A DNA stretch of 64,000 bases from Blastomussa wellsi (lineage: Eukaryota > Cnidaria > Anthozoa > Scleractinia > Plerogyridae). Numbering within the stretch: the stretch's first letter is position 1; each line of letters begins with the position of its first letter. The translations under genes were made by a program, and so were the position numbers. The notes under the pieces were generated by a model. That model was given only the letters and a program-made list of their open reading frames with translations. It did not search any database and was not told the origin of the DNA. The DNA is taken from assembly GCA_947652115.1 (NCBI GenBank), contig OX393568.1, positions 8,205,175 through 8,269,174 of the forward strand, read 5' to 3'. Positions 4,546 to 31,406 of this stretch are shown here, piece after piece.

Positions 4546-4694
4546 ATGTATTTATCATGGGTCGCATAGCCTTTTCTTTGGGGTGTTAAATGGTATGCTG
4601 TTCTCTTGCTTCATTAGCGGTAGGCTATAAATATTTGAGTTGTTCTCATTTATATTCATTCGCGTCTTACGACCGTCCCTACGCCCTCAAAATT
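4546..4694 (+). repeat. A1 repeat of YR element 1
   Basis: This matches 10857-11004 almost base for base and stops exactly before the gag ATG at 4695. It should carry the element promoter; TATAAATA lies at 4627-4634. An open frame starting at 4590 runs through it into gag, but the same leader is encoded in A2, so I take 4695 as the gag start. Confidence 0.85.
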
Positions 4695-5534
4695 ATGTCC
4701 GACGTTGAAGACGTTACTCCAGCGAACACAGATTTTCCTAGCCGCGACGTTTTGCTGCCTTCGCTTCCTAAACAACCTTTGTCTCAATCTCTCGAAGCTT
4801 CAGTACCATTCCAGTCTTCAGAATCCAGTGATATAGCGTCCGCGTTCTCTCTATTTAAGGATTATTTCGATAAGAAGTTGGGCGCCTTGAAGCGCGATAT
4901 TCAAGACGAGTCGTGCAGTAATACCGATTCTGTGGCCAAAAAGCTTAAAGAAGAATCCAAGATCACGTTTAGATTCGAAGGTAATAAGAAACAGTTTCAA
5001 TTCAACTCCGACCTTGCAGAAAAGGTGAAGTCGGCGTCAGTCGCTCTCGGGAAGAGAAAATTAGACCTTGTTAAAACTCAACTGGAAGAGCTAGACTCTG
5101 ACATCAAGAAGCGCAACAAACTTATCAGACTGGCAGACAAGTCCGCCGCCGGTTGGGATTTGGTGAACGAGTATTTATCAGACGAGCTGGCTGGCGGGTC
5201 AGAGGACGAAAAGCGTATCCGCCGCGCCGAGCAGAGGGCCCTCCGTAAACGCAACCTACGCCAACAGAAAGCGAAGCCATCAAAGCAAGGTTATTCACAG
5301 CCCCAATCTTCTACTGCAACCACCGCGTTTGCTGACCAACATTCGTCATCCTCCAGACCTATTTCTCGTACTTTTGGCGTTTTCAAAAAACCAAGACCAA
5401 GTGATATTTGTTTCGCCTGTGGCCAGCAAGGTCATTGGAGATCTCAGTGTCAAGTTAATCCTCAAGCCAGATCTTCAAGCTCGGGGCAGTCCTTTCCTAG
5501 TTCTTCTGGTCTTTCGGGCATTGGAGGTAAATAG
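4695..5534 (+). CDS. Gag-like protein of YR element 1
   Basis: The 279-codon open frame starts at the ATG directly after A1. It has a Ser/Pro-rich amino end, a charged helical middle with the block LIRLADKS...GWDLVNEYLSDEL that is matched in the gag of YR element 2, a Lys/Arg-rich stretch, and near the carboxyl end one CCHC zinc knuckle (CFACGQQGHWRSQC, spacing CX2CX4HX4C). Such proteins bind the element RNA in a ribonucleoprotein particle. The frame is intact although the downstream frames are not. Starting upstream at 4590 would add 35 residues encoded by the repeat. Confidence 0.8.
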   Translation: MSDVEDVTPANTDFPSRDVLLPSLPKQPLSQSLEASVPFQSSESSDIASAFSLFKDYFDKKLGALKRDIQDESCSNTDSVAKKLKEESKITFRFEGNKKQFQFNSDLAEKVKSASVALGKRKLDLVKTQLEELDSDIKKRNKLIRLADKSAAGWDLVNEYLSDELAGGSEDEKRIRRAEQRALRKRNLRQQKAKPSKQGYSQPQSSTATTAFADQHSSSSRPISRTFGVFKKPRPSDICFACGQQGHWRSQCQVNPQARSSSSGQSFPSSSGLSGIGGK

Positions 5535-5596
5535 GACCACAGGATTAAAAGCTTGTCCTCCAAGGTTAGATATTAGCTTTAGTCAATTTATTAGAC

Positions 5597-7080
5597 ATGT
5601 ATCCTTCGTATTTGGAGTATTTCAGGGAAAGGGACTCTATTTCTTTAGTCGATTTCGATTACGATCGCAATCTATTTGAATTTGAACAGAATTCCGCATT
5701 GCCAGTACTTAAGGGTAGACTTAGGTCCTGTTTAAGTTATTGGCACGCTATTGGTGCCAATAGTTTTGTTATCGATACTATTAAATTCGGTTATCGGATT
5801 CCATTCATTAGTACACCTTGTCAGGCGCGTTTTTCTAACAATCAGTCAGCTCTTAATAATGCGTCTTTCGTGGAGTCGGCTATAGCTGAATTAGTCCACA
5901 CTCACGCCGTCGTTGAGTTACCCTCTATTCCACACGTTGTTAATCCGCTCTCTGTCTCGATACAGTCTTCAGGCAAGAAGAGGCTTATTCTGGACTTGCG
6001 TCATGTCAATCATTTCGTTTGGAAACAGAAGTTTAGGTGTGAAGATTGGAGAGTTTTATTATCATATGTTAATAAGGGCGACTACCTTTTCAGTTTCGAT
6101 CTTAAGTCTGGATATCACCATATCAATATTTTTCCGGATCACCAAACTTTTCTAGGTTTCTCCTGGGTTTTTTCTGGTACTGTTCGGTATTTTTGTTTTG
6201 CATCACTTCCGTTCGGTCTAAGCTCAGCAACACATGTCTTTACCAAGTGTCTCAGACCACTCGTTAAGTTTTGGAGGTCTAACGGGATTAAAATTGTTGT
6301 GTTCCTTGACGATGGGTGCGGAAAAGGGGACTCACTGCCTACGGCCAAGGAAAATTCATTGTTTGTGCAATCATCCTTAAGCAGTGCGGGGTTTGTTGCC
6401 AATTCCGCCAAATCACTATGGAACCCCACTCAGACGCTTGTTTGGTTGGGTTTAAACTGGGACTTAGTTATCGGTACCATTTCTATTACCGATATACGTA
6501 TTTGCAAATTTGTCGCTCTGATTGACAAATTTCTTTTATCCGCACCTTATGTTACGGCTCGGGATTGTGCCTTTATCGCAGGTCATGTTATGTCCATGTC
6601 GCCAGTTTTGGGCATTCTGACTCGCCTCAAAACCCGGTTTCTTTACAAGGTCATAGAATCCCGCCGTAGTTGGGATTCCCGTTTTAATATCGGGCTTCAT
6701 AATGATTGCCTCTCTGAAATATTTTTCTGGAAAAACAATATGCTCCCCTTTTGTTTAGCTATTCGGACGCTAGCAACGTCGCCTGCGGGGCTTTTGTGGT
6801 GGGCACTAATGAGGTGTCCCATCGTATGTGGACTGCTTCCGAAGCAGTTAAGAGCTCTACCTGGAGAGAACTTAAGGCTATACAATTTGCCTTAAGTGCG
6901 TTCAAAGCCTCGGTTAGGGGTAAGTGTGTGAAGTGGCATTCCGACAGCCAAGGGGCCGTTCGTGTTGTGGAGATAGGGAGTCCTAGTGCAGAATTGCACT
7001 CTATTGCGCTTGATATTTTCTATTTTTGTCGAACTTACAATATCACACTTATTCCCCAGTGGGTTCCCAGGGAACTTAAT
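5597..7080 (+). pseudogene. Reverse transcriptase/RNase H of YR element 1, first part
   Basis: The reverse transcriptase is recognisable from KKRLILDLRHVN, FSFDLKSGYHHINI (motif A), LPFGLSSA and VFLDDG (catalytic motif C). The open frame begins at ATG 5597 and true similarity continues to about 6740, where the frame is lost; RNase H continues in another frame (6751-7080) with YSDAS, WRELKA and HSDSQGA. At 7080 it is cut by the 2.0-kb transposon and resumes at 9090. Homology to the intact 760-codon protein of YR element 2 shows these pieces belong to one gene. Confidence 0.85.
7075..7080 (+). repeat. Target site duplication CTTAAT, left
   Basis: The same six bases occur at 9084-9089 on the other side of the 2.0-kb transposon. 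Removing the transposon and one copy restores a continuous RNase H reading frame (VPRELN then ACADAIS). Confidence 0.85.
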
Positions 7081-9083
7081 GAGGCCCTGTTAGGGGGGGT
7101 ATAGATGTCGCCCGTCTGAATTTCAAAGCTTGTCACGTCGCCATTTCGGAACGTTCCGATGTCGCTGTCGCAATTTCAGCAATTTCGTGCTCGAAGTTTT
7201 GAAACGTCGGGATGTCTCTTAAAGTTGATGTGTTTAATGGTTTTAAAATAGCAAGAGCTGTATTAAAATGGCTACCACTGGCGCTTATACGGCTACTGGA
7301 ATTAAATTTCACAGAAAACGTGACACCGCAGGCGTCAGTAAAGTGAGGCGAAAATTTCTATGTTAGTCGGAAATTTTTTGTCGAGTGCAGATACATAGCA
7401 CGGCAGCTGTATTAGCGCCAGCCGTAGTGATTTCATTTCAATCTGTAACGTTGCGTGATGTTAAAGAAAGCTCGTATTAAAAGTCATCCCTCAGTTCTAA
7501 TAGTTCCATGGCTATGTTTTCAAGTCCAGGCGATTCGGTGGAATCACTCTTCTGCCAGATGATGTCTGGACAGGGGTGTATTCTTCGTCGGACTCGTCAT
7601 CGCTGTCGCAACTTTCACCTTCAGGCAAAAGATCTGCAATATCGTGAAGTTCGCTTAACAATTGTTCGTAGAACTCCTCAGAGAGCTTTATGAAATCATC
7701 TCCTTTCTGCAACGCCTTCTCGTCAGCAACACTAATTTCGTACGGGCAGGGAAGGGAGAGAAGCAAAAAAAGCAGGATGAGGCAATTCTAATTATCGATA
7801 TTTCGGAAATCAAATTTTGAACAATTAACGACTTGCCCAGTTAAGAATTAAAGCACATGAAAGCACTTACCAAACTTGACAAATGTTAATTATTTTATAC
7901 GACCAGCACTGTTATGCACTTTTATTAAATTTTCCCATACAGTTTCCCATCGATGACATTAATGTCATAAATGTTCTGTAGATTTACGCTCCGATTTGGT
8001 GAGTTGGTAGGCTCGATTACCAGCCGCTGATCGGACACGAGAGAGCGGGGAAAATTTAGCCCAGTGAGTTGGCGGTTTTCCCAATAACCCGGATAACAAA
8101 TTAAATCATAAAAAAATGTGTGGCTGTTAGTAGTAGCATGGTGTGGTCCCAAGAATGACCAGAAAGCTAGGAAAGGTCAGGAAAACGCACATTTTATTTT
8201 TTCTATCGCCACTGACGAACTTAAATATCTGGTACATGACCGTATATGTCAGCGAGGCATTTCCGGCTGCGGTTTTATTCCGCCGTGGTTTCTCATTGAC
8301 CTCATTGAGCTCAAATATTACATCATTTTCAAACTTTCGTATCTTAAAAGTCACAACTACTTCAATTCAGGAAAACACCAATGCGGACCAACGCTGACCA
8401 CGTTCCAATACTCAATTTAGTTTGGACCGGGATTATAATATAAACAGACGAGAAATCGTTGACCATGAGTTGATCACTGATCATAGACCATCATGCCGGT
8501 TCTGAGTCGTGACCAGTCGTGTCAGTAGTTTTACTGGACTTTTAATTTACTTTCACCTACCTGTCTTTTCTCTATGCTTTTTCTTCTTCTTTTCTTTTTT
8601 GTGCTTGTGCTTCGGCATTCTGTCTTAAACCGAAGTCGATCGAAACGTTCACAAACGACTCACAAACACCACAACACAACTGACTGCTCCGACTGCTCCC
8701 GCTGTAAATAGGTCAAAAGTGGCTAAAACGGCTGAGTTGGCTGACAGCTGAGCACGTGTGAACCTTAACCGGGCGAGATCGAATGTCAAATGTGACCATT
8801 CGTGACATTAGTACGTGACATTCGAAGCGTAACGCGTAATAAGGTCTAACAAGAGGGATATTTTGGGCGATGTGAACATTATTTTTTTTTTCAAATACAA
8901 TTCTAAGTGATTCTAAGTCGCTGTCGAATGTCTAAACAGACGAAATTCGCTGTCCATTTTGAACTTTTTCCCGTCGCTTTCGCAGATTGCAGCAGTTATC
9001 TTGTCGCTCGTCGCCATTTCATTTCCCTGATGTCGCTGTTTCAACGCCATGTCGCCCGTCGGAATTTACCCTATCAGGGCCTC
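7081..9083 (+). mobile_element. 2.0-kb DNA transposon of unassigned family, copy 1
   Basis: This 2003-bp block begins GAGGCCCTGTTAGGG and ends CCCTATCAGGGCCTC, imperfect terminal inverted repeats, flanked by the 6-bp duplication CTTAAT. A second copy, nearly identical apart from an 8-base indel near one end, lies reversed at 12979-14989. No transposase domain can be seen; the longest frames are under about 100 codons, so it is non-autonomous or its enzyme is spliced beyond recognition. Inner parts of the ends share GTCGCCCGTC and GACGGGCGAC words in opposite orientation. The 6-bp duplication excludes TTAA- and TA-specific families and does not fit hAT (8 bp). Confidence 0.85.
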
Positions 9084-9539
9084 CTTAATGCTTGTGCTGA
9101 TGCGATTAGCCACATTGTAGACTTCGATGACTGGTATACAACTCCCGAGTTCTTTACACACCTGGACCGCCTTTGGGGCCCACATACAGTCGACAGGTTT
9201 CGCGTACCCGGCACTGAAGCTGTTGACGCATTTTCAATCTCCTGGAATGGAGAGAATAATTGGCTAGTCCCTCCCGTCCACTGCATTACTAGGGTGATTC
9301 AGCATCTCCTTGTATGCGGTGCGGTTGGTACTTTAGTCGTCCCTTATTGGCCGTCTAATGTGTTTTGGCCTTTCTTGTTTGCAAATGCAATTCAATTTCA
9401 ACCGTACGTCCTTGAGTACATTCATTTTCCTGATCCCTCAGGGATTTTCGCCCTCGGGTGTTACAAAGATTCACTCATTGGTTCAGACAGGTTTAACAGC
9501 GCGGTGTTGGCAGTCAGAATTGGTGCTAAGGGGCCTTAG
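9084..9539 (+). pseudogene. Carboxyl part of RT/RNase H of YR element 1
   Basis: The RNase H tail (ACADAISHIVDFDDW) resumes right after the inserted transposon, followed by a domain of about 130 residues with LWGPHTVDRF, WNGENNWLVPPV and LVVPYWPSNVFWP, ending at the stop at 9537-9539. YR element 2 has the same tail. It sits where DIRS and PAT elements carry a Dam-like methyltransferase-type domain, and the PP after a hydrophobic run is compatible, but I do not claim activity. An open frame from 8907 fuses the end of the transposon to this tail by chance. Confidence 0.75.
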
Positions 9540-9657
9540 TTTTCCCAAGCCGAGTGGCTTTATGCTGGCCCGTGTGTTTTTGAGTTGGCCTATTCGGCCT
9601 TAAATAGTTTTCCATCTGGTCAGAGGCATTACCAAGTGTCCATTTTTTATTACTGCA

Positions 9658-10733
9658 TTGACTCCCAGTGCGCGTATTGAGGAATTTTTGCCATATATTC
9701 TTGTTCTTATCCTCGTAGAAGTTCTCAAAGATGCCTTGCAGCCTAATTTTAAACAGGTTGAAGACAGCCGACTCCGGGCACTGGTTCAAGATCTCCCCGC
9801 AGTTCTTCTTAAATCCAAAGCTGATAGTACCGCGAAGAAGTATGAAAAGGGATTCAATACGTGGAGAAAATGGGCTTCTCAACTTAAAGAAATTGTTGTA
9901 TTTCCCGCTTCTAGTGTGCACGTTTCATTGTTCTTTCTTAGCTTGATTCAAGAATCTGCTTCTTGCAGTACTATTGACGAAGTCCATTATGGGCTCAAGT
10001 GGGTGCATGATTTGGCAGGTCTACCCGACCCCTGTAATTCCTCGTTAGTTTTACCTTTAATAGAATCTGCTAAGAGGCTTCTCAGTATCCCTGTTAAAAA
10101 GAAAGAGCCGGTGACCCCCGAGGTTATCCAGCTGTTATTTTCTAAGTATGGATCGTCTTCAGCTAGTTTGTCTGATTTACGAGTGCTTACTTTGTGCCTT
10201 TTGGGTTATGCGGGGTTTTTTTTCGCTTTAACGAGTTGGTTCAGTTACGCAGGTGTGACTTTCAGTTTGAAGATTCTTTTATGAGAGTCTTTGTTCATCG
10301 AAGTAAGACTGACGTTTACAGGGATGGGGCTTGGGTTCTTATCGCTAAAACTTTCAAGCATGCATGTCCTTATTTATTAGTTCAACGATATTTTGTGGCC
10401 GCTTCTTTTTCAGCAGACAGCGAAGAGTTCATTTTTCGCCCTGTTGTTTTTCTTCGCAGTACCGGAACCTATAAATTGCGCGGGTCTGTTCCTTTGTCTT
10501 ATTCTAGAGCGCGGGAGATAGTGCTTAGCGCTTTCGATTCCATCGGTCTTCCCAAGCAAGACTACGGTCTCCATAGCCTTAGGGCCGGAGGTGCCTCCGC
10601 TGCTGCTAATGCTCGAGTGCCTGACAGATTGTTTAAAAGACACGGCCGTTGGAAATCAGACAAGGCAAAAGACGGTTACATTAAGGATAGTGTTCATTCA
10701 TTGTTGTCGGTTTCGTTATCACTGGGTATTTAA
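9658..10733 (+). pseudogene. Tyrosine recombinase of YR element 1, frameshifted
   Basis: The protein would cut and rejoin DNA through a covalent phosphotyrosine to insert the element. The amino-terminal core-binding part (LKSKADSTAKKYEKGFNTW) and the catalytic part (FFRFNELV with the first Arg, HSLRAGG with His and the second Arg, FKRHGRW, and the Tyr in KDGYIKD) are all present but in two frames; the switch falls in the eight-T run near 10215. No ATG precedes the domain in frame; instead a pyrimidine-rich tract ends in CAG at about 9669, like a splice acceptor. The eight-T frameshift could be a sequencing error. Confidence 0.85.
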
Positions 10734-10759
10734 TTTGCCGTATTTCCCGTTCTTTTAGT

Positions 10760-10856
10760 TCGCACACGGCTCCTGTTGACACACCCCAATTGAGGTTGCT
10801 TGTTACATGATAAATGTTTTATATTCGTTTGAGCAGGGTAGCGAATTAGAATATAA
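10760..10856 (+). repeat. B1 repeat of YR element 1
   Basis: The 97 bases match 11226-11321 and are joined directly to A2. Confidence 0.85.
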
Positions 10857-11004
10857 ATGTATTTATCATGGGTCGCGTAGCCTTTTCTTTGGGGTGTTAC
10901 ATGGTATGCTGTTCTCTTGCTTCATTAGCGGTAGGCTATAAATATTTGAGTTGTTCTCATTTATATTCATTCGCGTCTTACGACCGTCCCTACGCCCTCA
11001 AAAT
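10857..11004 (+). repeat. A2 repeat of YR element 1
   Basis: This is the internal copy of A1. The B1-A2 junction is presumed to be the template that restores the element ends during reverse transcription. Confidence 0.85.
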
Positions 11005-11225
11005 TAAATACCCAGTGATCAGGGGTTTCTTTTAGACGTAGTTTTTTGCATGCTGCTACACGAAAGGTTTAGCACGTTTTGTATGTCTACTGAATGATTG
11101 TTATACGAGCATAGTTTAGATCATTTTGTCGGGTTTCTTGCTGTAATTTTGTGCATTTCCGAGTTTTCATTCTGTTTGTTGTATTATTTCCATCCATTCT
11201 GTTGATGAAGGCATAATAAAGAGGG

Positions 11226-11321
11226 TCGCACACGGCTCGTGTTGACACACCCCAATTGAGGTTGCTTGTTACATGATAAATGTTTTATATTCGTTTGAGC
11301 AGGGTAGCGAATTAGAATATA
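11226..11321 (+). repeat. B2 repeat of YR element 1
   Basis: This is the terminal copy of B1; the element ends here. The 220 bases between A2 and B2 (11005-11225) hold no frame; they begin with AAATACCCAGTGA, the reverse complement of the recombinase gene end TCACTGGGTATTT. Confidence 0.8.
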
Positions 11322-11980
11322 AAGAAAAGAACTAAGAGTCGTGACAAAAATATAAAACAATCAACCTTTGGTACATGTGTATAGTAACACGTTGCTCAGG
11401 CTATCTAATATAGGTCACTTTATAAGGATATAAGAGATTGGTTGGAGGGAGAAAGATAGCAGGCAGTTTTTGTGGGGGGATGCTTCGAAAACAGCGATCA
11501 CGAAATACCGGCCGCCATTTTGAGCGCGCGAACACTGGAGAGGGGAAAAAAGAGAAGGGGAGGTGGTAGGGCGGAGGTTGCAAATTACCATTCGGTCTTT
11601 CTTGATTGATGTTTTCGAAGTATTCCCCCCCCCCCCAAGAGGCTGCGAAACAGTCTTAAACTCCGAAATACACATCATTTTCACTAATTTTGTCAATGTT
11701 TCAACCACACACCAGAAAAAAATAAAATAGCAATTTTGCCTAAAACTCCCCGTGAGGACTCCCCAATGGAAACCAGGTGTCCCGCATGACAGGCAGGATA
11801 CTCACCACTACAAAATATAATCTGATGTTGTGCTAAGAGCAGCACAGCATACAACGTTAACTTTGAAAGTTTCTTGAGCCTGTAACATACAATGTCAAAA
11901 GGTTTACTGTTCATGGCGCAATTATAACTGGTTTACGAGAGAAAAGTAAGCGAAAAAATATTTGTCGTGATATCGACAAA

Positions 11981-19090: not shown

Positions 19091-19196
19091 ACTCTCGTCT
19101 AAATTCCCTGACCATTAAACACCCGTGCGCAAAAAACAAATGAACCAAAAAACATTCACAAGAAAATTGCGATCGTGCGCTCACTGGAGGCCGCAC
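19091..19196 (-). repeat. B2 repeat of YR element 2
   Basis: This matches 21341-21446 over about 106 bases, starting CTCTCGTCTAAATTCC on the plus strand. Confidence 0.85.
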
Positions 19197-19408
19197 AGTT
19201 TATTGATTGATTGACTTGCTGACAATACTGACATACAAGACGATTCGATAATAAGAACAACAAGGCCTAGAATAATAATAAAGTACACTAGGACAGTACC
19301 AACGAGCATCCACAGGATGAAAAAACCTCACCGCGCTCGTTGCGGTAACAGAGAGGAAAAACCCCAGCCCCATGGATGGTACTGTCCGACCTGCTGGGCT
19401 CGGTCTTA

Positions 19409-20407
19409 TCAAATTCCTAATGATTTCGAAACAGACAGTAAGGATTGAAAATTGTCTTTAACATAACCATCTTTAGCATTTTCACTCAACCAACGACCAT
19501 GTCTTTTAAAAAGTCGATCATTAATGCCCGCATTAGCGGCAGCGGTGGCTCCTCCGGCCCTGAGACTGTGAAGACTTATACAGGAAACGTCTGTTATGTC
19601 CTTAAAAGCGTCCTTAACGATCTCTCGGGCTCTGCTGTAGCTCAAGCCTTGACACCGGACTTTGGAGGTGGATCTAGAAGACGATAAAGCCCTAAACAAC
19701 GGCAGATCCTCACCAAGGTCAATTTTTGCGGCAGCAATGTATTGCTCCAACGCCTTAACAGGGCAAGTGTCTTGATTCGACCGCGCGATTGCAACCCACG
19801 CCCCGTCACGAAATTGGTCTGTCTTGGACGATTCTAAAAATATAGACACGTAAGTAGGAAAAAATTTAATGTCACAAGCTCTTATGGAGCACAACTCACT
19901 GAAACGAAAAAAGCCAGCATAGCCTAAGAGACATAAAGCTACTGTCCTCAAATCCGACAAAGAAGCAGACTTATCTGAAATCTTTGAAGTTACAAGCGCT
20001 TTTAACATTTCGCTGGTGATGGGCTCTTTCTTTGCCTTCGGTTTTCCCAGAATTCTTTGGGACGCACTAACCATGGAAGAAACAATAGGATGATCAGAGA
20101 CCTTCGGCAGACCGGCCAAGCGTTGAGCCCAATCGATACTGTAAACAGCATTAAGTACAGGAGAAGGAGAATTAGCTTCAAAAATCAGGCACTGCAAGTA
20201 GGCCGCAACATGAAACGAATTGGCAGGCAAGTGGCGAAGACAGTAAGATGAAGCCCAAAGCTTCCAGCGCTTAAACCCAGCCAAATAAGTACGAATGGTG
20301 CCTTCCGCTTTCGATGCAAGCACTGTTTCCTGGACGCGGCTAGCCAATGGCTGCAGATCATCAGGGAATGCGGCAAAGAATTCACACCACATCTCAGACT
20401 GGAACAC
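19409..20407 (-). CDS. Tyrosine recombinase of YR element 2
   Basis: The open frame covers about 330 codons. It has the amino core-binding half (ASKAEGTIRTYLAGFKRW) and the catalytic half with the first Arg in GFFRFSEL (about residue 168), His and Arg in HSLRAGG (about 280), FKRHGRW, and the nucleophile Tyr in KDGYVKD (about 315). It would integrate a circular DNA copy. The first in-frame ATG is at 20392; the frame is open upstream to a strong acceptor-like tract (TTTTCCTTTTTTCCAG) ending at 20412, so the protein may be made from a spliced RNA, perhaps starting in an A repeat. It is full length and shows no breaks. Confidence 0.88.
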   Translation of the reverse strand: MFQSEMWCEFFAAFPDDLQPLASRVQETVLASKAEGTIRTYLAGFKRWKLWASSYCLRHLPANSFHVAAYLQCLIFEANSPSPVLNAVYSIDWAQRLAGLPKVSDHPIVSSMVSASQRILGKPKAKKEPITSEMLKALVTSKISDKSASLSDLRTVALCLLGYAGFFRFSELCSIRACDIKFFPTYVSIFLESSKTDQFRDGAWVAIARSNQDTCPVKALEQYIAAAKIDLGEDLPLFRALSSSRSTSKVRCQGLSYSRAREIVKDAFKDITDVSCISLHSLRAGGATAAANAGINDRLFKRHGRWLSENAKDGYVKDNFQSLLSVSKSLGI

Positions 20408-20629
20408 ATCTGGAAAAAAGGAAAATTAAGAAAAGAACCGACAAACAGGCAAAAAGCGACCAATCAAAAATAAAGCATATAGGAACAAAAGCAAACAAAC
20501 AGCAATGAAAAATGAGGATAACAACGACAAGTTCGAGGGAAAGCTGGAAAATAACCTCTCCACAATAAAAGTTGCTTCCAGGTAAAATCTACATTTTGGT
20601 CACAGATAGTCCAAAGCCACACGGCTGAT

Positions 20630-21075
20630 AAAAGGCATCCCTATAAATATCTCAGGGCACAGATGGTCTTAGGTAAAAAACGATCCCATTAAGGTGAAAA
20701 AATCATCCCTAATTATCACGAGCATGGTCCGACTTAGGTGGAAAAACCATCCTTAGATATCTCCGGCACAGATGGACCGACTTGGGTGAAAAATCACCCC
20801 TAAACATCTCGGGCACAGATGGTCCCGTTCAGGTGAAAAAATTACCCCTAAATATCTTGGGCGCAGGTGGTCCCACTCGGGTGGAAAAAATCACCCCTAA
20901 ATAACTTGGGCACAGATGGTCCCACTCGGGTTGAAAAAATCATCCTTAAATATCTTGGGCACAGATGGTCCCACTCGGGTGGAAAAATCACCCCCAAATA
21001 ACTTAGGCACAGACGGTCCCACTTAGTGTAAAAAACACCTAGGAGTTCTGGGCTCAGATAGTCCCAATATAGACG
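20630..21075. repeat. Minisatellite, about 48-bp period, inside YR element 2
   Basis: About nine diverged units share the words CACCCCTAAATATCTTGGGC, ACAGATGGTCCCACTCGGGT and GGAAAAA. It lies between A2 and the recombinase, so it would be the leader region of any RNA started in A2. A minus-strand frame through it is a by-product. Confidence 0.8.
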
Positions 21076-21192
21076 GGCGCAAATTGCCCCGATAATAACA
21101 AACTTATTATGCAAGGAGTCATCAAGAACTGAATCTGAAAAAAAAAAACAAAAGAATGTAAATATATAAAATAAAATAAAATCTATAAAATA

Positions 21193-21340
21193 AAAAATAA
21201 AAGCGAGTCGCCTCCAGAGAACACCAAGAGGATGAATTTGCATACGACCACTCCTAATATACTCTCCCGAGAGTCCCTTGATAGTTCATACCAACGAGAG
21301 AATGTTTTTCCGCTAATTTTCAAACCGCGGAAAAATTCAA
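21193..21340 (-). repeat. A2 repeat of YR element 2
   Basis: This matches 24303-24450 with about two differences. It encodes the same short leader (MQIHPLGVLWRRLAFIF) as A1. Confidence 0.85.
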
Positions 21341-21446
21341 CTCTCGTCTAAATTCCCTGACCATTAAACACCCGTGCGCAAAAAACAAATGAACCAAAAA
21401 ACATTCACAAGAAAATTGCGATCGTGCGCTCACTGGAGGCCGCACG
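21341..21446 (-). repeat. B1 repeat of YR element 2
   Basis: This is the internal copy of B2, fused to A2 at TTCAA. Confidence 0.85.
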
Positions 21447-21616
21447 GCCCCAAGAGTACAAAGAAAGGAAAAGAAAGAGTATATGAATAACAAAATACGT
21501 ATAAACAAACAAACGATCTAACCGAAAAGCGAAAAACAAAATATATTCAAGGAAGTAAATCAAGCAATAATAAAATCAGAAAAAAAAATCTAACAGAGAA
21601 AATAAATTCACAACCG

Positions 21617-23899
21617 TCAAAATCGAATCCCTAAAGCGAGCATTCTAAAACTTAGATCCTCGTTGCCAAAAATGCTATTACATCTGCCAGGAGTGAAAGC
21701 TTCTTTGCTTGACGGAATATCCATCCAGCTAATGATAAAGTTAGAAAAATTAACGCCATCAGCACAAATCATGGGCCAGAAAGGAGCCGAGTGCCACAAA
21801 GGAACAACAAGAGTTCCCAACGCCTTACAATTACGCATATGTAATAACACTCGCGGAATAAGGCAAACGGGCGGACATACAAAATTGTTCTCTCCTGCCC
21901 AGTCCATAACAAATGAATCAATTCCTTCCGAACCTGGATTCCAAAATCTCGAATTAAATCTAGGAAGCTTAGCATTTAAGTAATTAGCAAAACGATCGAT
22001 AGAGTGCGGACCCCAAACCAAATCAATGTTTTGAAATGTGTTCCACGAAAGGCCCCAGTCATCGGAATCACAAATGCGGCTTAGAAAATCAGCCTTATCA
22101 TTCTGAGTTCTTGGAATCCACTCCATCTCTATCGAAATACGACTGCAACAAATGTTAAAGATGGACAACGCTTCAGACTGCAAGTGACCTTTGCTGCTGC
22201 CAGACGAAACAATCCGGGGAACATTCTGATTGTCTGTGAACCATTTAACGGTTAATCCCGACAACTGATCGAGCAAAGATAAAAGAACAAATTTCACAGC
22301 CAAGATCTCTCGCAAAGTGGAACTCGTTCGCATCTCCTCGTCGGACCAAGTGCCTGACACTAAATCCTGGCCGCATTGAACGAAATAACCACCAAATCCA
22401 GTGTCACTTGCGTCAGAATAAACAACTCCCACAGCACTAGACTTTGGTGACATTGGCTTCCCATTAATGGAGTCGATGTTGCTTTGCCAAAAGGAAAGCT
22501 CGTTGCGAATCTCAGGGGACACGAACAGATGCTGATCCCAGGAGGTTCTCCGTTCGATAGCTGCATAACAATTTCTTGTCAACAATCTTGTAACATTACC
22601 CACAGCGCACGACATGGAAATAATCTGACCAGTAATTGAAGCAAGACCTCTAGCGGAGATAAAGTTATCTTGAAGACAAGAATCAATAGACGACTTAAGC
22701 TTGAGAATACGTTCTTCAGGAATAGCAATCAAACCCGTTTCAAAATCCAAGACCATTCCAAGAAAAACTAAGTTTTGCACAGGTTCCCAATTGGATTTTT
22801 CATCATTAGATGTAAAGCCGGCTGAAGCGAGATCTTTACGAACTTGAACACTGATATTTTTAGCGCTCTCGCGAGATAAATTTCCACCGATGCCATCGTC
22901 AAGATACGTCAAGGCTAAAAAGCCGCAGCCCCTCCAGAACTTAACTAACTGGCGCATAACTTTGGTAAAAATGTATGGCGCTGAAGTAAGACCAAAAGGC
23001 AACACCTTAAACTCGTAGAATTTCATGGCGCCGTCAACCGAAGGCCATTTGAACGACAGAAACTTCCTATGTTCTTCACAGATATCAATGTGATGATACG
23101 CCGATTTAAGGTCAAATGAAAACACAAACATACCAGGTGAAAACAGCTGAAGAACAGTTCTTAAATCTTCGTATTTGACAGACTTCTTCACAACAAATTT
23201 ATTCAGATGAGATAAATCCAAAATCAGACGTAGCTTTCCTGAAGACTGGACAGCAACATGTAATGGATTACAAAATTGAGGATAGTCTGAAACTTCTCTT
23301 AAACAACCACGAGACATCAATTCTGAAATCGCCCTCTCCACAAAGCTATCTTGACGACGTGCAGAAGATCTATTTTCAATCGAATATGGCAAGGGAGTCT
23401 CCCGAAAAAGAATCTTGTAACCATTACGGATGATGTCTAGAACAAAGTCCGAAGCCTGAATGGTATCTTGCCAAAAAGAAGAGTTTGCCCATAACTTCCC
23501 TTGAACAAAGCTCAAGCTCGATCCTTGGACATCCCGCTCAAATTCGCATGGTTCCAAACAGTCAAGGTTTGGATCCTGACGACAAAGGTTTGTCTCTGGA
23601 ATTACAGAAATTGGCCCAGTGACCTCGCTTGCCGCATCGAAAACATAAGTCGGAAGCTCTGGATGAATTGTAGGAGAATCGACTTTGAGGGCGAAAATAG
23701 CTAGAAGCTGAAGGAAAAGAGCCAAAAGAACTACCAGGTCTGGAAGCGCTGAAGGATGGCGGCGCAGAAGCCGAGGAAACTTTAGAACTGGTTTTTCTCT
23801 TTTTCTCTTGAAGTGTCTTAATCTTAACAGCGGCTCTCTTCTCTGCTTTTTTGATCTTCGAAGCGTCGGCCTCGTCGTCGGCCAATTCATCAGAAACAT
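21617..23899 (-). CDS. Reverse transcriptase/RNase H protein of YR element 2
   Basis: The open frame has 760 codons. Reverse transcriptase motifs are SSGKLRLILDLSHLN, FSFDLKSAYHH (motif A, about residue 262), LPFGLTSAPYIF and TYLDDG (motif C, about 333). RNase H follows with VVYSDAS (about 495), TLREILAVKF and FTDNQNV. After RADFLSR-like DKADFLSR comes a tail domain with LVWGPHSIDRF, WAGENNFVCPPV and LVVPLWHSAPFWP. The first 112 codons overlap the gag frame in another register, so the true start is probably lower, by frameshift or re-initiation; the Arg/Lys-rich first residues are likely an artefact of that overlap. Confidence 0.88.
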   Translation of the reverse strand: MFLMNWPTTRPTLRRSKKQRREPLLRLRHFKRKREKPVLKFPRLLRRHPSALPDLVVLLALFLQLLAIFALKVDSPTIHPELPTYVFDAASEVTGPISVIPETNLCRQDPNLDCLEPCEFERDVQGSSLSFVQGKLWANSSFWQDTIQASDFVLDIIRNGYKILFRETPLPYSIENRSSARRQDSFVERAISELMSRGCLREVSDYPQFCNPLHVAVQSSGKLRLILDLSHLNKFVVKKSVKYEDLRTVLQLFSPGMFVFSFDLKSAYHHIDICEEHRKFLSFKWPSVDGAMKFYEFKVLPFGLTSAPYIFTKVMRQLVKFWRGCGFLALTYLDDGIGGNLSRESAKNISVQVRKDLASAGFTSNDEKSNWEPVQNLVFLGMVLDFETGLIAIPEERILKLKSSIDSCLQDNFISARGLASITGQIISMSCAVGNVTRLLTRNCYAAIERRTSWDQHLFVSPEIRNELSFWQSNIDSINGKPMSPKSSAVGVVYSDASDTGFGGYFVQCGQDLVSGTWSDEEMRTSSTLREILAVKFVLLSLLDQLSGLTVKWFTDNQNVPRIVSSGSSKGHLQSEALSIFNICCSRISIEMEWIPRTQNDKADFLSRICDSDDWGLSWNTFQNIDLVWGPHSIDRFANYLNAKLPRFNSRFWNPGSEGIDSFVMDWAGENNFVCPPVCLIPRVLLHMRNCKALGTLVVPLWHSAPFWPMICADGVNFSNFIISWMDIPSSKEAFTPGRCNSIFGNEDLSFRMLALGIRF

Positions 23900-24290
23900 A
23901 CTCTTGGATTGTGGCCCAGCCGAATTCCGATTTATCAGCTAGCTTGATTATTTTCTGTCTACTATTAATCAAAGAAATACCTTTGTTAAGTTCCTCCTTG
24001 GCTTTAGGAATGTTTCCGCTCTCCAAAGCTTTCAATGCTGTACCACTCGTCTTGGCCACTTTACGATTGAAACTAAACTGCTGCTCGTTTCCTTTTTTCT
24101 TGAACACGTAGGTGTCAGGTTGAAGGTCTGACGCTATTTGAACGGCCAAATCTGACTGCGCTTGAAGCAAATTGGTCTGGAGACCTTGAATTTGTGCGTT
24201 AACAGCGGTCAAGATAGCATTCTTCTGAGCATCTAAAATAACAGTCAATTCAGGAGAAAGAGAGTCACCAGCTTCTTGTTCGCTACCCAT
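23562..24290 (-). CDS. Gag-like protein of YR element 2
   Basis: The 242-codon frame from ATG 24290 has a coiled-coil-like amino region, the block KIIKLADKS...GWATIQEYVSDEL shared with gag of YR element 1, a Lys-rich and then Ser/Phe-rich stretch, and a terminal CCHC knuckle (CFRCGKRGHWANFC). An upstream in-frame ATG at 24353 lies inside A1 and would add 21 residues. It should package element RNA. Confidence 0.85.
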   Translation of the reverse strand: MGSEQEAGDSLSPELTVILDAQKNAILTAVNAQIQGLQTNLLQAQSDLAVQIASDLQPDTYVFKKKGNEQQFSFNRKVAKTSGTALKALESGNIPKAKEELNKGISLINSRQKIIKLADKSEFGWATIQEYVSDELADDEADASKIKKAEKRAAVKIKTLQEKKRKTSSKVSSASAPPSFSASRPGSSFGSFPSASSYFRPQSRFSYNSSRASDLCFRCGKRGHWANFCNSRDKPLSSGSKP

Positions 24291-24302
24291 GAAGACAGGA
24301 AT

Positions 24303-24450
24303 AAAAATAAAAGCGAGTCGCCTCCAGAGAACACCAAGAGGATGAATTTGCATACGACCACTCCTAATATACTCTCCCGAGAGTCCCTTGATAGTTCATA
24401 CCGACGAGAGAATATTTTTCCGCTAATTTTCAAACCGCGGAAAAATTCAA
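24303..24450 (-). repeat. A1 repeat of YR element 2
   Basis: This is the 5' terminal repeat on the minus strand, matched by 21193-21340. It ends at TTCAA against the host TTTTTTTTACCG. Confidence 0.85.
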
Positions 24451-26514: not shown

Positions 26515-26671
26515 TGTAGTGTATTGAGGACAGCGGTTGCATATGTAAGAATATACATCCGGGACAGAGAGAGCGCGGGAAAATAGAGTGTTGGAGCGTG
26601 TACTGTGTGTACTCCATTAAACCGTATGTTTTAAGCCTTTGTGGCTGTCTTTGTGGCTTAACAACACTACA
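26515..26671 (+). repeat. 5' LTR of the Gypsy element
   Basis: Identical to 30921-31077. A primer-binding site is expected in the bases right after 26671 (AATTGGCGACGAGGATG); the priming tRNA was not identified. Confidence 0.95.
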
Positions 26672-26685
26672 AATTGGCGACGAGG

Positions 26686-29600
26686 ATGTCGAATTCAGTG
26701 GAGAGAGCATTGCCGCCTCTAGATTTAACAGGATCTTCCTTTCAGGTCGCCGAACGGTGGCGACAGTGGAAACGTTCGTATCAGTATTACACCGATGGCA
26801 AAGGAATCACGAATCCTTCGAGAAAAAAGGCCCAATTGCTTCATTTGGCGGGCATGGAAGTGCAGGATATTTACGAGGATCTCCCAGACCCTGGACCGGT
26901 GAATGCGGACGAGGATAATGAATATATTGTGTGTCTGCGAAAACTGGATGCTCATTTTCGAGCGGAGGACAATGTGCCATACGAGCGACATGTTTTTCGT
27001 CAACTTGCGCCGACACAAGGGGAGACCGCTGACAAGTTCATGGTTCGTTTACGTAAACAAGCTCGTCATTGCAATTTTGGAGGGGCTTTGGAGGAAAATT
27101 TGCGAGACCAATTGATCGAAAAGTTGCCTGATGTTGAGCTAAAGAAGAAATTACTTGAGGTCAATAATATTACTCTGGATGCTGCAATGGATAAAGTTCG
27201 AAAGTGGGAAGCCTCGCGTGAACAAGCAAGTCAAATGGTCACGCCAAAGCAAGAAGTTGGAACAGGTGCTAATGTGGTTGAGGAAAAGTTTGGGCACGGA
27301 TCCAAAGGAAAAAGTGTTTGTTTTAATTGTGGTAAAGAAGGTCACTTTGCTCAAAGCAAGGGTTGTCCAGCTCGAGGTCGGAAGTGCAGTAAATGTGGGA
27401 AATATGGTCATTATGCTAGCTGTTGCAAAGGGGGAGGAAATCCGAAGTCTGGAAAACAAGACACCACCCAACAACAGGGAGGTAGACAACAGCGTCGTGG
27501 TAAAGGAAGACAGGCCAATGTTGTCGAGGATTTTGAGCAGTCAGGTGAGGATGACACATTTGCTTTTACTATAGAAGAACAGACATGTGCTTTGTCGAAT
27601 TCTGCTGAGCCAGTGATCTCTGTGAACATTGGTGGAATCAGCAGAGAAGTGTTAATTGATTCTGGTTCTGCAAGTAACCTTATCAGTAAAGATACTGTAC
27701 AGGAACTTAAACATCAGGGGCTAAAGATTGAATTACAGCCCTGTACCAAGAGATTGTATGCCTATGGAGGTCAAGAGGTCAAAGTTGAGGGCCGGTTTCA
27801 AACTGAAATTTCAGTATCTAAATCAAAGATTGTGGCAGATTTCATTGTTGTTAAAACGGGGCGTTGTTTGCTGGGATGTTCAACTGCCACAGAGCTTGGA
27901 ATCCTTCATGTGGATCCAGCGGGAACTATTGGGTCAGGGGACTGTAACACTGTTGATGATAATTTTGTGGGGCAACTCAAAACAAAATACCCCAGTGTGT
28001 TTCATGGCATTGGAAAACTCAAAGATTATCAGCTAAAGCTACATGTTGATCCAAGTGTAACTCCAGTGGTTCAAAAGATGCGAAGAGTGCCTTTCTCCCT
28101 TAAAGACAAGGTAACCATGAAGGTTAATGAACTCCTTGAAAAGGACATAATTGAGAAAGTCGAGGGGCCTACGGCGTGGGTGAGCCCGGTCGTTGTCGCA
28201 CCAAAAGCGTCAGGGGACATAAGGTTATGCGTCGACATGCGAAGAGCTAACGAAGCAATTACCCGGGAGAGGCTGCCCATACCGACCATAGATGAAGTCC
28301 TCGAGAGCCTAAATGGGAGTGGCGTGTTCTCAAAATTAGATTTGCGGTGGGGTTTTCACCAAATCGAGTTGGATCCTGATTCAAGGGATATCACTGCTTT
28401 CGCCACCCATGACGGTATATTCCGGTACAAGCGTTTGAGCTTTGGTGTTAATGCCGCACCAGAGAAGTACCAGCATATTATCACCCAGTCAATGGCAGGT
28501 CTACAGGGAGTGGCAAATATAGCAGATGATCTTATTGTTCATGGTCGAGACACAGAGGAACATGATAAGAACTTACACAGTGTGCTGCAGCGTCTTAGTG
28601 AGAAGCAGTTAACTGTGAATGCAGAAAAATGCACCTTCGGGATGAACAGAGTTGTGTTCATGGGTCTTTTGCTTAGCAAGCATGGCGTCGGACCTACTCA
28701 GGAAAAAGTCAGAGCCGTTGCTGAAGCAAGTCAGCCACAGACACCTTCAGAAGTTCGTAGCTTCTTAGGACTTGTAGGATTTAGTGCCAGGTTTTTACCT
28801 GATTTCGCTACCACTGCTGATCCCCTCAGAAAACTTGCAAGAAAAGGAGAACCATTCGTGTGGAGCAAGGAACAGGAGCAGTCATTTCAGAAATTGAAGA
28901 GTCAAGTTGCAAGTGCACCAGTCCTGGCTTACTTTGATAAGGATGCGCCTACCCGTGTTATTGCTGACGCAAGTCCAGTTGGTCTTGGTGCTGTGCTGGT
29001 GCAAGAGAAGAATGGGGAAAGTCGTGCTGTTTGTTATGCCAGTCGAAGTTTGAGTCAAGTGGAGCGCCGTTATAGTCAGACAGAAAAAGAAGCACTAGCC
29101 TTAGTCTGGGCGTGTGAACGCTTCCACCTCTACTTGTATGGGCTCCCGCAGTTTGATCTCGTGACAGACCATGAAGCACTTAAAGTCATCTACTCGAGGA
29201 AGTCTAAACCTTCAGCCAGAATAGAGCGCTGGGTTCTGCGTCTGCAGCCGTACAACTATCAAGTTTGTTATGTGCCTTCAAGAAAGAATATCGCTGATGC
29301 ACTTTCTCGACTGACAAAGATACCAGCCTCAGATCAGTACCTGAAAGATGATGGTTATGTACGCTTGGTAGCACTGCATGCTGTCCCTGCTGCATTGAGA
29401 ATAAAAGAGATTGAACGGGTCTCGGCACAAGATTCAGAGTTGCAAGCAGTCAGAAATTGCCTCATAGAAGGAAATTGGGACAGTGCTTCTAAGTCGTATT
29501 TGCCAGTTCGCAATGAGTTGACCTTCATTGGTCATGTAATTCTTCGGGGAACAAGAATTGTTATACCCCAATCACTTCGCAAGAGAGTTGTCAGTTTGGC

Positions 29601-30741
29601 CCACGAAGGACACCAGGGAGTCGTAAAAACAAAGGAGAGACTTCGAACAAAGGTCTGGTGGCCTGCAATGGATCGTGATGCAGAGAGAAGATGCGCAGAG
29701 TGTTACGGATGTCAAGTGGTTACCAAGAACGTTCCACCACCACCAGTAAAACCGACACCATTACCCAACCAACCATGGGAAGAGGTAGCTGTGGATCTAA
29801 TGGGTCCATTACCTTCTGGAGAACACCTGTTAGTTCTCGTCGATTATTACAGTCGGTGGATGGAAGTCGATGTCATCCGAACAACCTCCAGCAAAACCAT
29901 TATTCATTGCCTGGATGCCCAATTTGCAAGACATGGGATACCTAAAGGTCTCCGTACCGACAATGGCTCAAATCTCGTGTCCAAAGAGGTAGAAGAGTAT
30001 CTGAGAGAAATGGGGATTGAGCACCGTTACACGACACCCCTATGGCCAAGAGCTAACGGCGAAGTAGAAAGACAAAATAGGTCACTTCTGAAGTCCATGA
30101 GAGCAGCCCATGCAGAAGGCAAAAATTGGAGAGAGGAGCTAAACCGGTTTCTTTTGGCATACAGGTCCACACCACATTCAACTACAGGAAAAAGCCCTGC
30201 TGAGTTACTGTTTAGAAGGAAGCTAACAACCAAAATGCCTGAGCTAGTTGATGTTGACGAGGAAAAGGAAGTTAGCGACCAAGCTGTCCGTGATCGGGAC
30301 ACCGAGAGAAAGCAGTCCAGCAAGGACTATGTTGACAAGAAGTTTCATGCCAGAGACCGAAATGTGAGAGAAGGGGACACTGTCCTGCTTGAGAAGAAGA
30401 AAGAAAATAAGTTGTCACCTTGCTACGAAAAGGAGCCATATGAGGTGGTATCTCGTTATGGGGACCAAGTGATGTTGCAATCACAACAAGGTGTTCAGTA
30501 CAAGCGCAACCTTCAGCATATTAAGCTCTTTAATAAGGCAGATCAGAAAGAACAGGAGACGCCTCTACAGGATGCTGAACCTCAGATTGCTCACCCTACA
30601 GCTGAGAAAGAACAGGAGATGTCGCTACAGGATGCTAAACCGCAGGATGCTAAGCCTGCAGCTGAGCAGCCATTGAGAAGGTCCACTCGAATTTCGAGCA
30701 GTCCGAAGGCTCTGAACGATTATGTTCTATACTTAAACTAG
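26686..30741 (+). CDS. Gypsy Gag-Pol polyprotein
   Basis: The 1351-codon frame starts at ATG 26686, 15 bases after the LTR. In order it has a Gag capsid-like region (1-205), two zinc knuckles (CFNCGKEGHFAQ... and CSKCGKYGHYASCC, about 211-247), an aspartic protease with LIDSGSASNL (about 325), reverse transcriptase with FSKLDLRWGFHQI (about 550) and NIADDLIVHG (about 613), RNase H with VIADASPVGLG (about 760) and TDHEALK, the integrase HHCC finger (HEGHQG...CAECYGC, about 975-1010), and the integrase catalytic Asp, Asp and Glu in VAVDLMG (1036), RTDNGS (1091) and NGEVERQ (1127). The end is charged with a short repeat PQ(I/D)A...EKEQEM. Single-frame gag-pol without frameshift is common in this group. 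All catalytic residues are present, so it may be active. Confidence 0.95.
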   Translation: MSNSVERALPPLDLTGSSFQVAERWRQWKRSYQYYTDGKGITNPSRKKAQLLHLAGMEVQDIYEDLPDPGPVNADEDNEYIVCLRKLDAHFRAEDNVPYERHVFRQLAPTQGETADKFMVRLRKQARHCNFGGALEENLRDQLIEKLPDVELKKKLLEVNNITLDAAMDKVRKWEASREQASQMVTPKQEVGTGANVVEEKFGHGSKGKSVCFNCGKEGHFAQSKGCPARGRKCSKCGKYGHYASCCKGGGNPKSGKQDTTQQQGGRQQRRGKGRQANVVEDFEQSGEDDTFAFTIEEQTCALSNSAEPVISVNIGGISREVLIDSGSASNLISKDTVQELKHQGLKIELQPCTKRLYAYGGQEVKVEGRFQTEISVSKSKIVADFIVVKTGRCLLGCSTATELGILHVDPAGTIGSGDCNTVDDNFVGQLKTKYPSVFHGIGKLKDYQLKLHVDPSVTPVVQKMRRVPFSLKDKVTMKVNELLEKDIIEKVEGPTAWVSPVVVAPKASGDIRLCVDMRRANEAITRERLPIPTIDEVLESLNGSGVFSKLDLRWGFHQIELDPDSRDITAFATHDGIFRYKRLSFGVNAAPEKYQHIITQSMAGLQGVANIADDLIVHGRDTEEHDKNLHSVLQRLSEKQLTVNAEKCTFGMNRVVFMGLLLSKHGVGPTQEKVRAVAEASQPQTPSEVRSFLGLVGFSARFLPDFATTADPLRKLARKGEPFVWSKEQEQSFQKLKSQVASAPVLAYFDKDAPTRVIADASPVGLGAVLVQEKNGESRAVCYASRSLSQVERRYSQTEKEALALVWACERFHLYLYGLPQFDLVTDHEALKVIYSRKSKPSARIERWVLRLQPYNYQVCYVPSRKNIADALSRLTKIPASDQYLKDDGYVRLVALHAVPAALRIKEIERVSAQDSELQAVRNCLIEGNWDSASKSYLPVRNELTFIGHVILRGTRIVIPQSLRKRVVSLAHEGHQGVVKTKERLRTKVWWPAMDRDAERRCAECYGCQVVTKNVPPPPVKPTPLPNQPWEEVAVDLMGPLPSGEHLLVLVDYYSRWMEVDVIRTTSSKTIIHCLDAQFARHGIPKGLRTDNGSNLVSKEVEEYLREMGIEHRYTTPLWPRANGEVERQNRSLLKSMRAAHAEGKNWREELNRFLLAYRSTPHSTTGKSPAELLFRRKLTTKMPELVDVDEEKEVSDQAVRDRDTERKQSSKDYVDKKFHARDRNVREGDTVLLEKKKENKLSPCYEKEPYEVVSRYGDQVMLQSQQGVQYKRNLQHIKLFNKADQKEQETPLQDAEPQIAHPTAEKEQEMSLQDAKPQDAKPAAEQPLRRSTRISSSPKALNDYVLYLN

Positions 30742-30904
30742 TGATATTTGCAGTCATATGATATTCGTTGTTGTGTTGAACAGGTGACATTGGAGCATTG
30801 TTTTATGAACTAAACAGCAAGGCCATGTTTATGGCTAGTGTGACTTGTGAACATTTGAGCATAAGAACATGAAATGAACTTTAGTTTTTGATTAAGTAAA
30901 CAAG

Positions 30905-30920
30905 CGAAGAAAGAAAGGGA
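30905..30920 (+). promoter_or_regulatory. Polypurine tract of the Gypsy element
   Basis: GCGAAGAAAGAAAGGGA-type purine run abuts the 3' LTR and would prime plus-strand DNA synthesis. Confidence 0.8.
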
Positions 30921-31077
30921 TGTAGTGTATTGAGGACAGCGGTTGCATATGTAAGAATATACATCCGGGACAGAGAGAGCGCGGGAAAATAGAGTGTTGG
31001 AGCGTGTACTGTGTGTACTCCATTAAACCGTATGTTTTAAGCCTTTGTGGCTGTCTTTGTGGCTTAACAACACTACA
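30921..31077 (+). repeat. 3' LTR of the Gypsy element
   Basis: Identical by eye to the 5' LTR; followed by the duplicated ATCAT. Confidence 0.95.
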
Positions 31078-31406
31078 ATCATTAGAGGTAGATGTTTTGG
31101 GCCTTCAAAGGACTATCCAATTACTAGTAAAATACGCACTTATAATGTACTAAAATCAAAAACACGCATCATAAGAGGGGGTAGGAATAAAAAACGTTTA
31201 ACATATCGCTTGATCAAAAACAGTAGAGAGTATACGTACTCATGATTATTACTGAGGTTACAACCCAACATTATCACTTTAATTTTATTGAAGGGCATTT
31301 CTCAAGGTTTAGTAAACAGATCTTATCGCTTATCAAAATGGAACCTCTGGAGGCAGTATGAACAATTTTCATGAGAAATGAATTGTGAAAAGAATGATTT
31401 CTGAAA

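Follow-up and report, generated by a model that had tools for sequence, protein, structure and literature searches.

The tyrosine-recombinase (YR) retrotransposon on the minus strand of the window (the whole 64,000-nt stretch of Blastomussa wellsi DNA analysed here) carries its internal repeat junction, B1-A2, between the reverse transcriptase (RT) and the recombinase. This split layout is the normal form of its family, F1, and is common to sister families of the same genome. The layout is already known in nematodes and algae, from the nematode form of PAT and from Kangaroo as described in PMC4157794, and F1 presents it in a host group for which that account gives another form. From 24450 to 19092, ORF, repeat and tandem-repeat searches find the order A1, gag, RT/RNase H/MT-like (methyltransferase-like), B1, A2, minisatellite, YR, B2, as the preliminary description had read it. 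It had also called all frames open, which is true of the gag, RT/RNase H and YR ORFs of the window copy, and had given the span as 19091..24450, of which the start at 24450 stands and the end moves to 19092. The features are:

24303..24450, minus strand: A1, left terminal repeat, 148 nt, starting TTGAATTTTTCCGCG
23562..24353, minus strand: gag-like ORF, 263 aa, with a zinc knuckle (zf-CCHC_5 above cut-off)
21617..23899, minus strand: RT/RNase H/MT-like ORF, 760 aa (ORF, Pfam, alignment with relatives)
21341..21445, minus strand: B1, internal right repeat, 105 nt (110 nt counting 5 nt in common with A2)
21193..21340, minus strand: A2, internal left repeat, 148 nt; the B1/A2 junction can be folded as a hairpin
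20724..21023, minus strand: minisatellite, 48-nt unit, 6.2 copies, between A2 and YR
20408..20433, minus strand: pyrimidine-rich tract followed by AG/AT, a putative 3' splice site before YR (read from sequence only)
19409..20407, minus strand: tyrosine recombinase ORF, 332 aa (Phage_integrase; Cre-like by sequence)
19199..19204, minus strand: AATAAA, poly(A)-signal-like, just upstream of B2
19092..19196, minus strand: B2, right terminal repeat, 105 nt, ending GACGAGAG

Between A1 and A2 there are 2 mismatches in 148 nt, and over 110 nt B1 has exactly the sequence of B2. The element consists of two blocks, A1-gag-RT-B1 and A2-YR-B2, with an A at the start and a B at the end of each. In A1 there is a TATA-like motif, seen by eye only.

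The Pfam matches of the element are RVT_1, an integrase-family YR and the zinc knuckle of gag (zf-CCHC_5, 29.2 bits for a cut-off of 27); a zinc finger in Gag is a PAT-like trait. The RT/RNase H protein of the window has no Pfam Dam match at E ≤ 1, and neither has its closest relative scanned (P0001, 82%). A Dam methyltransferase match after RNase H appears at E ≤ 1 in seven of the eight RT relatives scanned, above the cut-off in two of them (P0031 and P0050), and the C-terminal region of the window protein aligns throughout with the Dam-scoring relatives, with PP conserved. By sequence comparison the recombinase resembles Cre (1crx, E 2.8e-5). Corals are among the named close relatives, with Oculina at 86% for YR and Acropora at 50% for RT.

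Across the 368 Mb of the genome searched, F1 (the family of the window element) has at least 9 copies with both ends and at least 4 junction-bearing copies with one end lost, among the best 40 of 96 candidates. The preliminary description had asked whether YR lies after B1-A2 in other copies as well. It does in every complete F1 junction found: in 13 of 13, RT is on the left and YR on the right (junction search, best 40 of 65). Among the fetched loci, F2 (L031) and F3 (L035) have the same order. That the layout is an accidental recombinant of two insertions is ruled out by the thirteen junctions together with these two further families, and with nothing found in its favour we give that reading practically no chance. 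The minisatellite lies before B1-A2 in F2 and F3 and after it in F1. Minisatellites with differing units are found between RT and YR in L031 (5141-5313), L035 (5001-5362), L037 (5622-5910) and the window (20724-21023). The window also holds a 42-nt minisatellite of 39 copies at 48532-50213, which overlaps a plus-strand open frame of 502 aa.

Other families have all genes before B1-A2-B2: F5 (L033), F6 (L036), F8 (L038) and F10, the latter being the element that the preliminary description had called YR element 1, whose gene order it had right. F10 is a second YR retrotransposon of the window (4546-11323, plus strand), in canonical order and with about 2 kb between two RT pieces. In F9 (L039) we see YR, B1 and B2 and do not see the A repeats, and F7 (L037) stands outside the layout comparison. 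The RT tree groups F1, F2 and F3 with support 88/92, its F2 row containing an out-of-frame stretch in which 13 stops are written as X; in the YR tree the three families do not come out as a single group. F2-like YR units (A tail-YR-B) also form a tandem array among long minisatellite stretches at C4:21158195-21212813, of which L034 holds 9 kb. Two F1 copies, L004 and L025 (C2:9124961-9137935), lie about 6 kb apart with the same left flank, which makes a local duplication likely.

Amongst known elements, as described in PMC4157794, internal repeats lie between MT and YR in Kangaroo and in nematode-form Pat1-like elements, and downstream of YR in Ngaro and Viper. The earlier statement that PAT-type elements keep all genes between A1 and B1A2B2 was therefore too broad, since the nematode form of PAT and Kangaroo differ from it. 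The window element has split direct repeats in the PAT-like arrangement A1...B1A2...B2, and its internal repeats lie between the RT/MT-like ORF and a co-directed YR, as they do in all 13 F1 junctions among the matches listed. With split direct repeats, a gag zinc finger, internal repeats between the MT-like region and YR and a co-directed YR, F1 is like nematode-form Pat1 (Panagrellus PAT and its kin; PMC4157794), a likeness of described features. It is unlike nematode-form Pat1 in its host, a cnidarian, and the same description places Nematostella under the echinoderm form, in which the internal repeats are located elsewhere than in the nematode form. F1 also resembles Kangaroo of Volvox carteri, whose internal repeats lie between MT and YR (PMC4157794), in having them after the MT-like region and before YR; however, Kangaroo has an inverted YR and a gag without zinc finger, whereas in F1 the YR is on the same strand as RT and a knuckle is present in gag. 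Split direct repeats, RT and YR are common to F1-F3, echinoderm-form Pat1 and Ngaro, and F5, F6, F8 and F10 (and F9 as far as seen) also have the gene order of the latter two, but in F1-F3 the B1-A2 junction precedes YR. Ngaro is described as lacking MT; the region after RNase H in F1 aligns with the Dam-scoring relatives. The combination of RT/RNase H with YR, and one insertion without target site duplication (see below), agree with the DIRS order. From the split direct repeats, the zinc-knuckle gag and the MT-like region we take F1 to be, probably, of the PAT/DIRS type.

Several clues bear on how the two blocks would be expressed. AATAAA is found within 60 nt before B2 in all 17 F1 YR modules and before B1 in none of 16 RT modules; the window B1 itself has no AATAAA in the preceding 60 nt. 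F2 and F3 have it only before B2. So do the canonical families F6 and F9, and the arrangement is therefore no mark of the split layout; in F5 and F8 the motif is inside B. A pyrimidine tract with AG/AT precedes YR in F1, F2, F3, F5, F7 and F8, and is not found there in F6, F9 and F10. In F1-F3 codon 6 of YR is an ATG with TGG after it; F5, F7 and F8 have a codon other than ATG there. The sixth-codon ATG and the AATAAA and splice clues fit a separate YR message in the split layout, although the families are related. It is plausible that A2 acts as a promoter for YR. One RNA that starts in A1, runs through B1-A2 and ends at the signal before B2 would be the genomic RNA, and A2 may start a shorter YR message.

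The blocks are also found singly. In F1 there are at least 4 RT-only loci (L012, L013, L016, L018) and at least 6 YR-only loci (L017, L019-L023), leaving out L025, L027, L029 and L030 as fragments or diverged. Each block begins TTGAATTTTTCC and ends GACGAGAG, and the flanks differ. To the right of L012 the flank (TTGAATTTTC) looks like the beginning of A, as does that of L013 to a lesser degree, so that these two may be deletion products. F3 has at least 1 RT-only and at least 3 YR-only loci with the ends of the family (best 34 of 127), the copies being nearly identical. An F2-like YR piece at C12:15847142-15848533 has no RT match nearby, and a single A-B unit of F10 is found about 190 bp from an F3 RT-only module (C22:2775284-2779641). 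Eight of the ten F1 single blocks (all but L013 and L017) can be assigned to RT types I/II or YR types a-d, where they are interleaved with full copies; modules may have been reassorted, one full copy, L005, combining RT type I with YR type a, but only three of the four type combinations are seen in F1. In an age test for deletion after insertion, private substitutions do not differ between single blocks and full copies (RT p=0.68, YR p=0.57), hence the F1 single blocks are not older than the full copies. All six YR-only blocks retain the stretch before the putative 3' splice site, so none of them comes visibly from spliced RNA.

Canonical families leave single units too. Amongst the best 40 of 188 matches, F5 has at least 10 A2-B2 units for at least 11 full copies, and no A1-B1 copy is among the matches listed. 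F6 has at least 8 units for at least 10 full copies, and at least 2 copies in which A1, the genes and B1 are present but B1 is followed by no A2 match (best 40 of 173; the unpaired A matches C4:9251881 and C16:15203280 left out). F10 has at least 12 near-identical units for at least 4 full copies (best 40 of 62, only A2-B2 units being counted and the pieces C1:33051284 and C9:19850840-19853247 left out). The twelve F10 units are related approximately as a star, with one substitution common to two units and one gap common to a unit and a full copy. Single modules might in principle also spread as a lineage of their own, a reading on which this F10 pattern and the interleaved F1 blocks bear. As a control we use a Gypsy family whose repeats are of similar length and spacing, and of which the window has an element at 26515-31078 (plus strand) with identical 158-nt LTRs and a 1355-aa ORF. 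With its 158-nt LTRs 4.4 kb apart, this family has 14 full copies and 2 unpaired LTRs (39 of 39 matches scored, nine diverged ones left out); diverged matches, of about 81% identity or less, are left out of the F5, F6, F10 and Gypsy counts alike. Pooled over F1, F3, F5, F6 and F10, there are 39 A2-B2 units to 52, against 2 to 14 for Gypsy (p=0.025, matches listed), a comparison that uses one control family and counts some truncated copies among the junction-bearing ones of F1 and F3. By family, again among the matches listed, the excess is found in F10 (12 to 4, p=0.001) and F5 (p=0.035), and is not significant in F6 (p=0.063), in F1 (10 to 13 counting all single blocks, p=0.076) or in F3 (4 to 14, p=0.66). 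Downstream blocks outnumber upstream blocks 27 to 7 among the matches listed (F1 6:4, F3 3:1, F5 10:0, F6 8:2), the bias being slight in F1 and F3. Judged by the order and adjacency of matches, there is no permuted A-YR-B-A-RT-B copy among the 52 junction-bearing copies listed (13 F1, 14 F3, 11 F5, 10 F6, 4 F10).

The flanks of F1 copies favour an AAA-N6-TTT-like target. On the left, A is at -1, -2 and -3 in 18, 17 and 16 of 21 copies, and on the right, T is at +7, +8 and +9 in 15, 15 and 14 of 22; L010, L014 and L027 are without a left end, L011 and L024 without a right end, and duplicate loci and the diverged L029 and L030 are left out. In F3 the pattern is not clearly repeated (A at -2 in 11/14, G at -4 in 10/14, T at +7 in 6/14), and the left flanks of F5 are A-rich. 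One F1 copy, L003 (C22:8386963-8392318), is nested in an F2 element, and when its flanks are joined they align with the F2 element L031 at 99.4% across 801 columns, ungapped at the joint; at this one site, then, insertion took place without target duplication or loss. In the window the five bases just past 19092, TTGAA at 19091-19087, are on the target side of the junction. The element's own spacer is on the left in 21/21 F1 copies and in 14/14 parsed F3 copies (one F3 row unparsed), and L001 and L012 carry TTGAA on the right as well. With N6 taken to be the crossover spacer, two-strand exchange over a non-matching spacer should also give the reverse arrangement, with repair bias as the alternative account of the polarity.

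On all this evidence, we are moderately confident that F1 is a young PAT/DIRS-type element of the nematode form, with one genomic RNA, whose single blocks are by-products of recombination between its repeats. The internal B1-A2 would serve as the template that restores the missing cDNA ends, a step that follows the model published for DIRS-order elements on DIRS1 (PMC3266345), and the recombinase would attach the element to the target by one B end and one A end, always in the same polarity. Recombination of A1 with A2 or of B1 with B2, homologous and perhaps recombinase-assisted, would leave the single blocks, which without an internal B-A junction should be dead ends in cis. Since the F1 single blocks are not older than full copies and A2-B2 units are, among the matches listed, commoner than Gypsy solo LTRs, plain homologous recombination may not suffice.

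The preliminary description had proposed instead that an element circle would hold two identical B-A junctions between the RT and YR modules, so that each module might integrate alone; on this reading the recombinase would resolve the circle into an RT circle and a YR circle. RT-only and YR-only modules with clean ends do exist in the same kind of site, as young as the full copies and with single units commoner than in the one LTR control, and that much of the proposal agrees with the genome. The circle itself predicts permuted copies, of which many would be expected were both junctions used; none is among the 52 copies listed, and canonical families leave A2-B2 units as well, which disfavours the two-junction circle. 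The excess of downstream blocks (slight in F1 and F3) and the right flanks of L012 and L013, which look as if deleted from a full copy, also speak against it, and we regard this origin as unlikely; recombination between repeats, perhaps with help from the recombinase, is likelier. Alternatively, single blocks might be retrotransposed from the short A2-started RNA, with their ends restored in trans on the B1-A2 of full-length RNA. This fits the excess of A2-B2 units (at least 6, 3, 10, 8 and 12 in F1, F3, F5, F6 and F10) and their youth, but it leaves the A1-B1 blocks unexplained (at least 4 in F1, 1 in F3, 2 in F6), and in F1 the sequence ahead of the putative splice site is still present in all six YR-only blocks. 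We consider this route distinctly improbable. For Cafeteria Ngaro, PMC8547959 describes solo AB repeats and reads them as solo-LTR-like products of repeat recombination. Single A-B units occur in both systems, although the single blocks of F1 and F3, unlike those described there, hold whole or nearly whole genes.

The boldest lead comes from folding the B-A junction as DNA. Compared with 200 base shuffles, the junction gives the more stable fold in 7 of 8 families (z -3.7 to -8.7), the exception being F10 (z +0.5). In the swap test the native B with the native A has the lowest energy in 7/8 columns and the most B-A pairs in only 5/8; here the F2 boundary lies 10 nt to the right of its proper place, and that of F9 is a guess, no F9 A1 being seen. 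Ungapped complementarity between the B end and A is weak in F1, F2 and F3 (75, 63 and 85 out of 500 shuffles did as well), stronger in F5, F6, F8 and F9 (13, 2, 2 and 0) and absent in F10 (214 of 500). In integrons the attC site forms a hairpin that has two paired boxes and, close to the crossover, a spacer. The B-A junction can fold in a comparable way; this is a likeness only, known from sequence folding, and the F1 recombinase is by its sequence Cre-like. Among the papers listed for attC with retrotransposons (12 of 52), and for circle junctions with single strands (7), nothing on such a likeness is evident by title or start of abstract. By this analogy the elements might integrate as a folded single strand like integron cassettes, with a two-box B-A hairpin in which the very end of B would pair with bases about 41-54 nt inside A to form the outer box, and with one strand exchanged at the border of box and spacer. 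Such one-strand exchange would keep the spacer of the element at the left end and that of the target at the right end, without producing permuted copies. We hold it to be doubtful, as the tests do not all agree; the hairpin together with the fixed polarity is a lead worth testing. If true, B1-A2 would be a ready attachment site in addition to a cDNA template, which would explain why single blocks are frequent.

Little is known of how tyrosine-recombinase retrotransposons integrate or of why their repeats have to be split. In this genome there are several young families of both layouts, and their many near-identical copies, together with single blocks, an empty site and junctions that can fold, make the polarity, the use of the spacer and the origin of single blocks testable by comparison and in vitro. 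The gene-bearing blocks found alone show how RT and YR can become separated.
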